Shown here in pieces: positions 40,731-45,834 of a DNA stretch of 64,000 bases (its first letter is position 1; each line of letters starts with the position of its first letter). The notes under the pieces were generated by a model. The model ran no database searches and had not been told where the DNA came from. It saw only the letters and a list, made by a program, of their open reading frames with translations. Both the position numbers and the translations under genes were made by a program. Origin of the DNA: Deferribacterales bacterium Deferri_01 (GTDB lineage Bacteria > Chrysiogenota > Deferribacteres > Deferribacterales > Geovibrionaceae); the NCBI GenBank assembly GCA_001603805.1, contig LUZY01000013.1, forward strand, positions 536,723 to 600,722, given 5' to 3'.

Positions 40731-41544
40731 AACCCCGCTTCTCAGTTTTGTTCCCACCCCTGTGGGCAATCTGGGCGATATAACTCTACGGGCTGTCGAA
40801 ACTCTGCGGAGTGCGGATATTGTATTCGCAGAGGACACAAGGACAGCCTTAAAACTCCTCAGCCATCTCGAAATCAAAGTCAGAGTCGAGTCTTTCCATA
40901 AAGATAACGAGAAAAAAAATATCGGCAGAATCATGGAACTCCTTGAAGAAGGAAAAAAGCTCGCAGTAATCAGTGAGGCGGGCTCACCGTGCATCTCTGA
41001 TCCAGGTATGTATTTGTCAGCAGCGCTGCGTGAGGCAAGCGTAACTTTTGAAGCCCTGCCCGGAGCAACGGCTTTTGTTCCTGCACTCACACTTTCCGGT
41101 TTTGACACTTCCGACTTTTATTTTCACGGTTTTCTCCCACACAAAGCATCAGAGAAAAAAAGCGAAATAGAAAAGCTTAAGAAATTAAGCACTCTTATAG
41201 TGTTCTACGAATCACCTCACAGAGTTACAGAAACCCTCAAACTGCTCTTGGAAAGTTTCCCGTCTCCAATATCAGTGAGCAGAGAAATAAGCAAGATTCA
41301 CGAAGAAACTCTGATGATATGCAATGAGGACGACATAAACGCCCTCACATTAAAAGGTGAGTTTGTTCTTGTGGTGAACAACCGCAAAGGATCGGAACCG
41401 GAAGAGAAAGAAGATTTCAGAGAGCTGGCGGAAACACTGATAAAAGAGGGAATTTCCGCCAAAGACTGCCTGATTGTTCTTAAAGCGATGGGAATTAAAA
41501 GAAACGCTGCTTACTCAGCTATTAATGAAATTATAAACGGCTGA
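40723..41544 (+). CDS. rsmI: 16S rRNA (cytidine1402-2'-O)-methyltransferase
   Basis: Methylates the ribose of C1402 in the ribosomal P site. The 273-residue tetrapyrrole-methylase-fold protein shows FVPTPVGNLGDITLRAVE, AEDTRTALKLL, the SAM-binding SEAGSPCISDPG and FYESPHRVTETL, all characteristic. It ends the long plus-strand operon and overlaps the convergent PH-like gene by 30 bp. Confidence 0.95.
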   Translation: MSKTPLLSFVPTPVGNLGDITLRAVETLRSADIVFAEDTRTALKLLSHLEIKVRVESFHKDNEKKNIGRIMELLEEGKKLAVISEAGSPCISDPGMYLSAALREASVTFEALPGATAFVPALTLSGFDTSDFYFHGFLPHKASEKKSEIEKLKKLSTLIVFYESPHRVTETLKLLLESFPSPISVSREISKIHEETLMICNEDDINALTLKGEFVLVVNNRKGSEPEEKEDFRELAETLIKEGISAKDCLIVLKAMGIKRNAAYSAINEIING

Positions 41545-42036
41545 TCCGATAAGAAAAATGTTCAGAACAACAAGCAGAACCATGAATGTTATCTGCTTTT
41601 TTCTTATGAGCTTGTTATCCAGCTTAGCTATATTTCCCTGCAATTCAGCATTTACATTTGATTTAACATAATCGGTAAAATCTTCAAAATTTTTGAAATA
41701 TGAAGAGACAAAAACAAATCTCTCAGCATCGGACAAAATCAAAATAGCCCGCATTTTCAGCAATATAACGCCTATCTCTTCAAGAGCGGTGAGCCTTATC
41801 TTTTTTTTGCCGAAAACAGTGTAAAGGCGCACTTCGTCCCCTTCCACTTCAAGTCTGCGGAAATAGAGCGAAATAAAATTAAACAATGTAAAGCCCATAA
41901 CAATCGCAGCTATAAGCCATTTTGCACCGTTCATACCTGTGAAGGCATGCGACACGGAGAAAAAAACAGATGAAACTACAAGAAGAAAAGAAAGAATCAT
42001 GGCAGATGTGCCGACTCTATAAACCGTCAATTTCAA
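41515..42036 (-). CDS. Membrane protein with PH-like domain, unknown function
   Basis: A 173-residue protein with two N-terminal membrane helices (about 11-31 and 38-58), a soluble middle part rich in short beta strands (YFRRLEVEGDEVRLYTVFGK, then KIRLTALEEIGVILL) that resembles bacterial PH domains, and one C-terminal membrane helix (about 150-170). The PH assignment is tentative. It overlaps the TPR lipoprotein gene by 20 bp, so the two are probably cotranslated, and its end is convergent with rsmI. Confidence 0.7.
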   Translation of the reverse strand: MKLTVYRVGTSAMILSFLLVVSSVFFSVSHAFTGMNGAKWLIAAIVMGFTLFNFISLYFRRLEVEGDEVRLYTVFGKKKIRLTALEEIGVILLKMRAILILSDAERFVFVSSYFKNFEDFTDYVKSNVNAELQGNIAKLDNKLIRKKQITFMVLLVVLNIFLIGSAVYNFINS

Positions 42037-44812
42037 GCTCCAGCGGGAGTTTCAGCAGAAAATTGCCATTCTTTGCCTCAAGCTCTCCCATTTCGTTGTA
42101 AACCATGCGGATATTATCACTTTTAAGCGCAACCATCAACCTTATAGCTGCCCCTCTGAAATCATCAGGGTATTTTCTCATGTAGCTTTCGATATGATCC
42201 AGAAGTCGTTGATCGTGATAATTCAGCAGGAAGTACAGCATCTTATAGTAATCAAAATACCTGTCCTGATACCCCAGATTTTCAAGGGCAGAAAATGAGG
42301 CTTCGGCGTTCACAAAGTCCTCAAGCCAGATAAAGTAGTACAGCGAAGCCTTATAAAGTTCAGGATACCTGAAATCCAGATTATTCAGACGCTGTAAGTA
42401 GTAAAGCGCACGTCTGCTGTCCCCCATATACACCTGATAATAAAAAAGTTCCTTCAGGATCACGTTGTCGTTTATGTAGTTGTCACTGTCAACACCGGAA
42501 AGCTGTTTAAATTTTTTCACCTGCAAATATGCCCGCATGAACTTATAGAACCTGTCTGTTATCAGATCAGGATTCTGCGCAGGTTCCTTGTTTTCAAACA
42601 TAGCGAGGAGATCACGGAGGCTTGCGCCTCTGAAAATTTTATCACTCCGAAGAACCTCAAGCCTGTCGAACCCCTGCCCGCTTAAATATTCGGAAAGCGA
42701 AAGAAGTGCCTTAAGAAAACCGTCTTCCGGTTTTTGCTTGCCAATATCTTCTATCACGCCTCTGTAGTCGCCAACACCCATATCAGCAAGGTATTTGGTG
42801 TAATAGATAATGTTCGGAACTTTTTCACGGTCGTCCCGAACATCTGCCGCTCTGTCACGCACAAGGTTGTATTCCTGGTAGGCTCCGTTTTCGTCTCCTT
42901 TATCTTTAAGAACAACAGCCTTTGCCAGATAAGCAGGAAAGTTGTACCTGTTTTGCATTATTGAATTATCAAAGAACTTTTCAGCAAGATCAGGTCTGCC
43001 TACAGCAAGATTTACAAGCCCCATGTTGTACAAAGTGTAAGGGTTATTGCCTAGGAGTTCATTTGCCTGCTGAAACTCACGCATGGCGTCCTGATAGGCA
43101 TAGGCAAGAAACAGGGTAACACCCTTATTATTATGAGCTATACCTTCCGAGAAGCGGACAGATTTCTGAAGCTCTTCAAGAGCAAGGAGTTTGTCATTCT
43201 GTTGGAGGAGCTTATAACCGAGAGCGACAAAATTCAGCATCTCATCAGGTTCAATAAGCAGCGGATAAAGCACTGTTGAAAGAATATCCTCAAAGTTACC
43301 GTCGAACCTGTACGAAAAATTCATATCGTCAAGGACAGGATCAAGATGTACGGCAATTTCAGGGTGTCTGCTTATTCTTAAGTTCCTTGTAAGAGCGTCA
43401 TTTATATGAACCTTAAGATCTGTAATCTTCTTGGTGTTCCATAGATTCACTGTTTTATACCAGAAATACTCCGGTTTGAATTCGTCTATAAGATCAACAA
43501 CTTTCACTGCATCATCATAGTTACGGTACTTCATCATGATATAGGCACGGTAAACGTAGTAGTCATTATCCGTCTCAGGCGGAACACGATCCAGAAGCTT
43601 CTGAGCAGGGAGCATGCTTCCTTTGTAGATATTGTACATGGCATCAGCGAGTTCCACATATGGAGACCGCCCGCGGGAAGCAATAAGCCTGCGCACTTCC
43701 TCTCCCTTGTTTTCATATATAAGAGAATGTTTTGCATACATATACATCAGGGCGTCATCATTTATCTCCCTGAAGCCCTTAAATATAAGTCCGCCAGCCT
43801 GTCTGTAATCGCCTTGGGCAAGCAGAATATTGTAATCTGTTAAGTAGTAAGCGGTTTCTTTAGGATATTCGGCAAGCAGTCCTGTCATAACATCATGGGC
43901 AGTGTTAAGTGAACCGCTTCTGAAAAGAGCCAGTGCGTATCTGTGCCTGTAATCTCTGTCTTTATTGAGATCCGTGAGTTTTTTAAGCACTGACGCCTCT
44001 TCGGCGTAGCTTTTAAGCATGTTGTAATCTCTGGCGAGAAGTTCAAACACTTCTTCAGTTTCCCTGAATTTTTCTGCCAGAAGGAGATTGGTAATGGATG
44101 TAAGGTAATCTCCTGTTCTGTAATAGGCAGTGCCAAGATTGAAATAATCAGTGTAGTTTTTATATTCAAGACCTTCTATTATCTTTATACCGCTCTCAAA
44201 TTCACCGATACTGAGCAGGAAATAAGCGTAATTGGACATTACAAATCGGGATTTCCCGTCTTTTTTGAGAGCTTCCTCATAAAGCACCGTGGCACGGGCT
44301 GTTTCACCCTTTCGCAGATAGATATTAGCCATATTTACAAGAAGTTTGCCGGATGCTCTGTCTTTGAGGAGTTCAGCCATATAAAGCTCTGCCTCGTCCA
44401 GCTTGCCGGTTTGAAGCAGAACAACAGCAAGGTTTATATAGCCTTCGGTAAATTTTGGATCTTCTTCAACGGATTTGCGGAAATACTCTTCACTTTTATC
44501 AATGTCACCAAGAAGATAATAGCTCACACCCATATTATAGAACGCAACGGAACGGTTAACCCGGAGTCCTTCCTCGTACTTTCTTATGGCGTCCTCAAAA
44601 TTACCCTGCAAAAAGAGGTTATTACCTTCCTCTATGCCCTGATCCTGTTCCGCTACGGCTACACCGGATATAGGCTGACTGTCTGTGTAGTTATCCTCAA
44701 TCAGCTTTATCCGCTCCTCCTCGGAGCAGGATGCCAGAACAAAAACAAGGAAAAGAAATAATCCCGCAAGGTACGGACTGTAAAGCTTTAATACTGTTCT
44801 TGCCGCACTTAT
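42017..44812 (-). CDS. Large TPR-repeat lipoprotein with non-standard start
   Basis: A very long tetratricopeptide-repeat protein. Repeats such as AFYNMGVSYYLLGDIDKSEE, EGYINLAVVLLQTGKLDEAE and LYNMGLVNLAVGRPDLAEKF run through most of it, so it is likely an outer-envelope scaffold. An ordinary start (TTG at 44611) leaves 864 residues but begins in mid-repeat without a signal. The same frame stays open upstream to a stop at 44828-44830 and encodes a textbook lipoprotein signal ending VLASC at 44726-44728. No ATG, GTG or TTG exists there; the best candidate is ATA at 44810-44812 with GGGAAG 5 bp before it, giving 931 residues. I report the extended form; a sequencing error is the main alternative. 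It overlaps the PH-like gene downstream. Confidence 0.78.
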   Translation of the reverse strand: MSAARTVLKLYSPYLAGLFLFLVFVLASCSEEERIKLIEDNYTDSQPISGVAVAEQDQGIEEGNNLFLQGNFEDAIRKYEEGLRVNRSVAFYNMGVSYYLLGDIDKSEEYFRKSVEEDPKFTEGYINLAVVLLQTGKLDEAELYMAELLKDRASGKLLVNMANIYLRKGETARATVLYEEALKKDGKSRFVMSNYAYFLLSIGEFESGIKIIEGLEYKNYTDYFNLGTAYYRTGDYLTSITNLLLAEKFRETEEVFELLARDYNMLKSYAEEASVLKKLTDLNKDRDYRHRYALALFRSGSLNTAHDVMTGLLAEYPKETAYYLTDYNILLAQGDYRQAGGLIFKGFREINDDALMYMYAKHSLIYENKGEEVRRLIASRGRSPYVELADAMYNIYKGSMLPAQKLLDRVPPETDNDYYVYRAYIMMKYRNYDDAVKVVDLIDEFKPEYFWYKTVNLWNTKKITDLKVHINDALTRNLRISRHPEIAVHLDPVLDDMNFSYRFDGNFEDILSTVLYPLLIEPDEMLNFVALGYKLLQQNDKLLALEELQKSVRFSEGIAHNNKGVTLFLAYAYQDAMREFQQANELLGNNPYTLYNMGLVNLAVGRPDLAEKFFDNSIMQNRYNFPAYLAKAVVLKDKGDENGAYQEYNLVRDRAADVRDDREKVPNIIYYTKYLADMGVGDYRGVIEDIGKQKPEDGFLKALLSLSEYLSGQGFDRLEVLRSDKIFRGASLRDLLAMFENKEPAQNPDLITDRFYKFMRAYLQVKKFKQLSGVDSDNYINDNVILKELFYYQVYMGDSRRALYYLQRLNNLDFRYPELYKASLYYFIWLEDFVNAEASFSALENLGYQDRYFDYYKMLYFLLNYHDQRLLDHIESYMRKYPDDFRGAAIRLMVALKSDNIRMVYNEMGELEAKNGNFLLKLPLELEIDGL

Positions 44813-44829
44813 ATCAGCTTCCCGTAATT

Positions 44830-45069
44830 ACATATTCACACCAAATTTACACTTATGGCGCTGTCATTAGAATCGTCTGTTTTTTCTAAATATTAATACT
44901 TTTTTGTTTAAAAAAGACTTTTACAGACTGATCCGCTTTTAAATTTTATGCAACATTAATCTTGAACCATACTTTCGTGCATGTTATCTTTAAATATACA
45001 TATTTCATATATCAATGATATAAGCATGAATTTATTCCAGTATAAATAATCAATTGACAGGAGAAGATA
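44830..45069. other. Divergent intergenic region with promoter candidate for the ABC transporter
   Basis: About 240 bp, AT-rich, no frame longer than 15 codons. On the plus strand TTGAAC (44962-44967), a 17 bp spacer and TATCTT (44985-44990) make a reasonable sigma-70 promoter about 73 bp before the start codon at 45070. The leader then has GGAG (45060-45063). I see no clear operator or riboswitch. The leader side facing the TPR gene holds its presumed promoter, which I could not define. Confidence 0.4.
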
Positions 45070-45834
45070 ATGAAAAAACTAACAACATTGATCATTACAG
45101 GACTCATAATTTTCACATCCTCATTCGCTTTTGCGGAAGGTCTTGATGATGTGAAGAAAAAAGGAGAGCTTTCTTTTTCTCTCACAGGACAGTACCCGCC
45201 TTTCAATTTTGTTAACGAAAAAAACACGGTAACAGGATTTGACGTTGAAATAGGGATGGAAGTTGCAAAAAGACTCGGAGTAAAGGGAAAAGCTGTCACA
45301 ACTGCATGGGATGGAATAATAGCCGGTCTCATAGCTTCTAAATATGACCTGATATGCGGAAGCATGGCTATCACAGAACAGAGGCTCAAATCAATCGATT
45401 TTTCTGACCCCTACTACAGAAGCGGGGCACAGATATTCACAAAAAACAGTTCAAAAATTAAGTCAGCTCTTGATCTCAGAGGCAAAAAAATAGGTGTGAC
45501 ACTCGGCACAACCTTTGAGCAGTGGGTTCGTGAAAACATTAAGGATGCCGAAATCAAGACCTACAAAGGCGTGCCTGATATGATACTTGAAACAGCTACA
45601 GGCAGAATTGATGCCTTCATTACAGATAAAATTGTAGGCGCTATGGCTATTAAAGAGAAATTTGCCCCGCTTAAACTTGTCGGCGACCTGCTCTATGAGG
45701 AGAGGATGGGCATAGCACTCCGCAAAGGCAATCCAGAACTCAGAGAAGCCATAAACAAAGCGCTGACAGATATGAAAAATGACGGCACTTATGAAAAAAT
45801 AAGCATGAAATGGCTGGGCATCGATGTCAGATAA
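45070..45834 (+). CDS. Polar amino acid ABC transporter, periplasmic binding protein
   Basis: Family 3 solute-binding protein that delivers an amino acid to the adjacent permease. The 254-residue protein has a signal peptide cut after about 22 residues (TSSFAFA), the ligand-fold segments GQYPPFNFVNEKNTVTGFDV, WDGIIAGLIASKYDLI and the IDFSDPYYRSG motif of this family. A likely ligand is glutamine, cystine, arginine or a similar polar amino acid; sequence does not decide. It is first in a three-gene operon. Confidence 0.94.
   Translation: MKKLTTLIITGLIIFTSSFAFAEGLDDVKKKGELSFSLTGQYPPFNFVNEKNTVTGFDVEIGMEVAKRLGVKGKAVTTAWDGIIAGLIASKYDLICGSMAITEQRLKSIDFSDPYYRSGAQIFTKNSSKIKSALDLRGKKIGVTLGTTFEQWVRENIKDAEIKTYKGVPDMILETATGRIDAFITDKIVGAMAIKEKFAPLKLVGDLLYEERMGIALRKGNPELREAINKALTDMKNDGTYEKISMKWLGIDVR

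Follow-up and report, generated by a model that had tools for sequence, protein, structure and literature searches.

The locus and its predicted product

The window, a stretch of 64,000 nucleotides, carries a gene for a TPR protein on its minus strand (Table 1). We compared its genome (G000) with those of two congeners (G001 and G002) and of a species of the sister genus in the same family (G003). The frame opens after a TAA and runs to a stop codon at 42019-42017. According to the original prediction, this frame stays open up to the TAA and holds no usual start codon (ATG, GTG or TTG) ahead of the lipobox. Direct reading and a script check both confirmed this: in G000, zero usual starts lie in frame between the TAA and the lipobox cysteine. 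Beyond the TAA, the minus strand reads TTA CGG GAA GCT GAT ATA AGT GCG GCA AGA ACA GTA TTA AAG, goes on from AAG with CTT TAC AGT CCG TAC CTT GCG GGA TTA TTT CTT TTC, and reaches the lipobox with CTT GTT TTT GTT CTG GCA TCC TGC. GGGAAG precedes the ATA by 5 nt, as had been described, and the earliest usual in-frame start is a TTG that falls within the mature protein.

Table 1. Features at the 5' end of the TPR gene (window positions)
Feature	Position	Strand	Remarks
TPR lipoprotein gene	42017..44812	(-)	931 codons from ATA plus stop; Pfam TPR families
Upstream in-frame TAA closing the TPR frame	44828..44830	(-)	in-frame ATG 44833-44831 directly before
GGGAAG, weak Shine-Dalgarno-like	44818..44823	(-)	register 5 relative to ATA
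ATA, proposed start codon	44810..44812	(-)	same aligned codon in 4/4 genomes of the two nearest genera
Lipoprotein signal peptide, 28 codons	44729..44812	(-)	assessed by eye
Lipobox cysteine codon TGC	44726..44728	(-)	sequence and family alignment
TTG, first usual in-frame start	44609..44611	(-)	rejected as gene start by family comparison
Conserved upstream leader or promoter element GACGATTCTAATGACAGCGCCATAAGTGT (GACGATTYTAATGACAGCGCCATA-like)	44849..44877	(-)	three genomes of the genus, partly G003

Read from the ATA, the product would comprise 931 residues, starting with I(M)SAARTVLKLYSPYLAGLFLFLVFVLAS-C and followed by TPR repeats. By eye, the signal peptide has Arg5 and Lys9 in its n-region, a hydrophobic core, and LAS before the cysteine. 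This cysteine (Cys29) is invariant in 8/8 aligned family sequences, G000 included, and the stretch looks by eye like a normal lipoprotein signal, in keeping with the original prediction. The product gave Pfam matches to TPR_2 (2e-27) and to other families above cut-offs. It thus combines a LASC lipobox cysteine behind a signal peptide (by eye) with TPR repeats (Pfam), the two marks of a TPR lipoprotein.

The next large gene upstream, at 45070 on the plus strand, encodes a solute-binding protein. This gene is divergent, and the TPR gene therefore probably comes first in its transcript. Another frame, at 45012-45389 on the minus strand, overlaps the solute-binding protein gene and is probably not real. 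A scan for promoter consensus sites across 44500-45200 gave no sigma-70 type match on the minus strand. We searched the 400 kb samples of G000 and G002 for the first 19 bases of the upstream element, allowing up to 3 mismatches. The only exact occurrence was the one at this locus, and the G002 sample contained one extra site, with 3 mismatches. In G000 the element contains a tiny frame, ATG ACA GCG CCA TAA. We took a terminator-like site at 44777-44763 (minus strand), inside the signal-peptide coding stretch, as a chance occurrence (0.5 expected in shuffles).

Downstream, a gene at 41515-42036 (minus strand) overlaps the end of the TPR gene. By eye, the sister genus has a TAG just before the AAA TTG of this gene, so that its start is probably the TTG at 42030-42028 and not 42036. 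If so, the end of the TPR gene (GGAG) would supply its Shine-Dalgarno sequence. The product of 173 residues gave no Pfam match at E <= 0.01 and looks membrane-like by eye.

Orthologues and the onset of coding-type evolution

A homology search with the TPR protein returned a match at E <= 0.001 in 59/59 genomes, including the window's own, but many of the weak matches appear to be other TPR proteins. Identity was 89% for G002, 87% for G001 and 64% for G003; eight remaining family members, from two genera, showed 44-47%. An alignment-based scan of contigs found six relatives, all from more distant genera with an ATG start.

We compared the start regions of the closest orthologues, a comparison that the original prediction had called for. 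They read TTA CGG GAA GCT GAT ATA AGT in G000, TTA CAG GAA ATG AAT ATA AGT in G002, TTG AAG GAA ATG AAT ATA AGT in G001 and CGC AAG GGG AAT GCC ATA GAA in G003. The aligned codon is ATA in G001, G002 and G003 as in G000, and in all four genomes the lipobox cysteine is codon 29 counted from it, without gaps. An ATG-to-ATA point mutation at this codon, one of three options offered by the original prediction, is thus disfavoured: both congeners have ATA there too. In contrast, the remaining eight family members lack this ATA and carry ATG at the start. Their ATG is the third codon past the upstream stop, stands behind GGAGGG and is followed by CCG or CCA. Since these relatives carry ATG, the ATA start seems to be a derived state in the lineage of two genera.

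Conservation of the ATA has to be read against codon usage and the neighbouring codons. ATA is no rare codon in this gene, where it accounts for 21/43 isoleucine codons in G000; its conservation alone is therefore moderate evidence at most. Moreover, G001 and G002 both have usual in-frame starts, an ATG two codons 5' of the ATA and a GTG at codon 7, and G001 has an additional TTG five codons 5' of the ATA. The ATA is thus not strictly needed in either congener. G003 has no usual start before the hydrophobic core; its GTGs stand at codons 14 and 16 and a TTG at codon 19.

The pattern of substitutions between G000 and G002 suggests where coding begins. Over the whole gene, 449 of the 931 codons are identical, 380 differ synonymously and 102 nonsynonymously, and this comparison gave no sign of decay in G000. 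The first 17 codons from the ATA hold 1 nonsynonymous and 4 synonymous differences; the five codons before it hold 3 nonsynonymous and 0 synonymous. At least 3 nonsynonymous codons in 5 would be expected with P of about 0.011 at a rate of 103/931. Protein-level selection thus appears to start near the ATA, in a test based on five codons only.

Shine-Dalgarno register, infC and the start scan

The 16S tail is GGATCACCTCC / GGATCACCTCCTTT in G000, G001 and G002. A 16S match was not found for G003, and its anti-Shine-Dalgarno sequence was assumed. As a reference we drew 214 genes from a 400 kb sample, each with just one conserved usual start close to where conservation sets in. The register is the number of bases that separate the start codon from the position paired with the last G of GGAGG; register statistics refer to the 186/214 reference genes with a stack of -5.4 or better. 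Among these, 113/186 have registers of 4-7, 5/186 a register of 11 and 1/186 a register of -1.

The ATA has a register of 5 in G000, G001, G002 and G003, which is among the commonest in the 186 reference genes. The stacks at the ATA are -5.61 in G000, -6.27 in G003, -7.69 in G002 and -8.62 in G001. The match in G000 is weak: 22% of the 214 reference genes are equally weak or weaker. It thus lacks the extended, strong Shine-Dalgarno sequence of the S. aureus and Streptomyces cases (see below), although such a sequence is the usual companion of non-canonical starts and not a strict requirement. In folding of the start region, G000 ranked among the less structured starts and G003 among the more structured ones.

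The usual starts nearby differ in how well they are placed. In G001 and G002 the ATG directly adjoins the Shine-Dalgarno match, at a register of -1, and the GTG at codon 7 reaches a stack of only -4.43, with a register of 1. The codon-14 GTG of G003 scores -9.95 at register 9, better than the ATA of the same genome. In the eight more distant family members, the ATG stands at register 11 with a stack of -10.95; an off-centre register alone therefore cannot exclude a start. These eight share GGAGGGATAA and starts of the form ATG CCG/CCA CCG, and in several of them CCGG and CGG/CCG could pair around the Shine-Dalgarno sequence and the ATG. Translational control by such pairing is possible in these relatives.

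The original prediction had likened the ATA to the start of infC, and the comparison proved apt. The infC gene (IF3) of these same genomes appears, by its sequence, to start at ATA: the context is TGGAGGTGANNN-ATA in G000, G001, G002, G003, G005 and G008. We fetched 26 infC loci (L045-L050, L055, L056, L062-L064, L066-L080) out of 42 order-level genomes with an infC match. The pattern TGGAGGTG[AT]NNN-ATA was present in 25/26, the remaining one (L077) having ATC, and TGGAGGTG itself was near-perfect across the Deferribacterales loci. None of six loci fetched from outside the order fitted the pattern. Like the TPR gene, infC has ATA in place of a usual start, keeps it in relatives and has its Shine-Dalgarno sequence in a common register. 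The two differ in that the Shine-Dalgarno sequence of infC is very strong (stack -17.65 versus -5.61), in that the ATA of the TPR gene is confined to two genera, and in that the TPR product, unlike IF3, is without known tie to initiation.

We then scored syntenic gene pairs of G000 and G002 for a conserved usual start, 480 in all, of which 351 came from a 400 kb region and 129 from a 200 kb region. A total of 425/480 pairs passed (315/351 and 110/129), 12/480 were flagged (8/351 and 4/129), and 43 (28/351 and 15/129) were neither passed nor flagged; inspection by eye covered the 12 flagged pairs. Three of these 12 lacked a conserved usual start in the scored range: the TPR gene, infC and one short gene, the last with a conserved ATG just beyond that range. 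By eye, 10/12 were set aside because a usual start lay just outside the range, because one was present whose Shine-Dalgarno sequence was weaker, or because the frame was doubtful. This leaves the TPR gene and infC as the two flagged cases that convincingly appear to lack a conserved usual start, a situation that is unusual in G000. The scan applied one rule to all pairs and recovered infC, but it was not blind: the rule was written after both genes were known, and the second region was picked for holding infC. In an earlier scan, 32/355 pairs lacked a conserved usual start near the onset, and 13 of these were viewed.

Competing starts and a model for AUA initiation

We infer from these comparisons that the ATA is a real, if weak, start that yields the 931-residue TPR lipoprotein with its signal intact, and give this a probability of about 0.77. 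Of the options in the original prediction, an ATA start is the best supported, because ATA and its register are common to 4/4 genomes of the two nearest genera. That the nearest relatives have ATA at the same place also argues for a real start over a sequencing error.

Could the relatives start elsewhere, at the ATG in G001 and G002 and at GTG 14 in G003, with the ATA never selected and conserved by chance? G000 would then have lost its ATG and would now make do with the ATA or be poorly translated. The change from GAA ATG AAT ATA in the congeners to GAA GCT GAT ATA in G000 fits this idea, as do the stack and register of GTG 14 and the frequency of ATA among the isoleucine codons of the gene. 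However, the congeners' ATG would have to work while abutting the Shine-Dalgarno match, at a register found in 1/186 reference genes. A start at GTG 14 would leave G003 with a 15-residue signal without positive charge, yet the n-region upstream of this GTG aligns with the n-regions of the congeners. Chance would also have to account for a register of 5 at the ATA in all four genomes, and the G000 gene is without sign of decay. We consider this reading unlikely.

The remaining explanations are far less probable still. If the gene started at the TTG, the signal-like stretch upstream would be untranslated. A sequence that ends roughly 11 nt 5' of this TTG, GAGGAAGG, does pair with the 16S tail, but the codon is TTG in only 3/12 family members, namely those of the window's own genus; the other 9/12 have CTN, and the lipobox region is conserved in the congeners, with synonymous substitutions. 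The orthologues thus do not begin there, contrary to what would have told against the original prediction; we agree with its remark that this start would remove the export signal. We rejected the TTG and give it next to no credence. Nor do we give more to an assembly or sequencing error that destroyed a normal ATG, the last of the options originally offered. A single genome of this species was compared, which leaves room for an error. However, G000 departs from the congeners' GAAATGAATATA at four positions, three within the ATG, so no single-base error explains the loss. The ATA itself is identical in both congeners, and G003 also lacks a usual start before the hydrophobic core. Finally, ribosomes might enter by reinitiation or frameshifting from a small upstream ORF such as GTG AAT ATG TAA (44839-44828), whose end lies 15 nt before the ATA. 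This mini-ORF, with its ATG-TAA pair, is absent from G001, G002 and G003, and we rejected such a route as very improbable.

If translation starts at the ATA with initiator methionine, the product would be the 931-residue lipoprotein with an intact 28-residue signal peptide. The Shine-Dalgarno match, a modest one whose end lies about 5 to 8 bases upstream of the AUA, would set the initiator tRNA on this codon, where the third base mispairs. Initiation would therefore be inefficient and the yield of lipoprotein low. IF3 acts against mispaired starts and would itself be made from an AUA start in this order, so that synthesis of the lipoprotein may follow the balance of IF3 to ribosomes. The TPR lipoprotein is thus plausibly a low-level, IF3-sensitive protein.

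In S. aureus, infC and ccpN start at AUA and cvfC1 at AUU; expression from ccpN, cvfC1 and citZ reporters was about 10% of that with AUG, and up to 30% for ccpN in rich medium (PMC13009471). In E. coli, infC starts at ATT, and Streptomyces sigR starts at GTC and is repressed by IF3 (PMC5472188). A cell-free survey reported that weak third-base pairs are excluded by IF3; the AUA tests considered here used the cognate UAU anticodon and thus do not represent AUA with the normal initiator (PMC10158994). When the rpoS start of E. coli was changed from ATG to ATA, RpoS fell by as much as 5-fold; the same paper cites an efficiency of up to 1% of ATG for ATA (Hecht, 2017, cited in PMC12864459).

Conserved non-canonical starts are already known as a kind; what appears to be new is the start of this gene. 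Apart from infC, few bacterial genes are documented to keep a start that is not AUG, GUG or UUG; in the sources cited here they are ccpN, cvfC1 and sigR. The TPR gene resembles ccpN (AUA) and cvfC1 (AUU) of Staphylococcus in its putative conserved AUN start outside infC. Those two have extended Shine-Dalgarno motifs and ribosome profiling behind them, whereas the TPR gene has a weak Shine-Dalgarno match and is known from sequence. With sigR it likewise shares a conserved, though here putative, non-canonical start outside infC, but sigR differs in its GTC codon, its AGGAGGTG site and its experimentally shown repression by IF3. Among the matches listed from open-licence PMC papers there was no earlier report of this gene's start or of ATA starts in Deferribacterales, and no study of translation initiation in this phylum.

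A bolder and rather doubtful idea is that in Deferribacterales a small regulon under IF3 control extends beyond infC and is marked by AUA, with the lipoprotein as its first member; in the two genera, AUA would have taken the place of an ancestral ATG. If true, such a regulon would link the balance of initiation factors, and thereby growth state, directly to envelope proteins at the level of translation. Should AUA initiation be confirmed, infC and the TPR gene would together offer a test of IF3 control over other genes. For annotation, a gene finder that recognises no starts besides ATG, GTG and TTG would shorten the TPR protein to the TTG and miss its export signal, and the same gene finder would mis-start infC in Deferribacterales.
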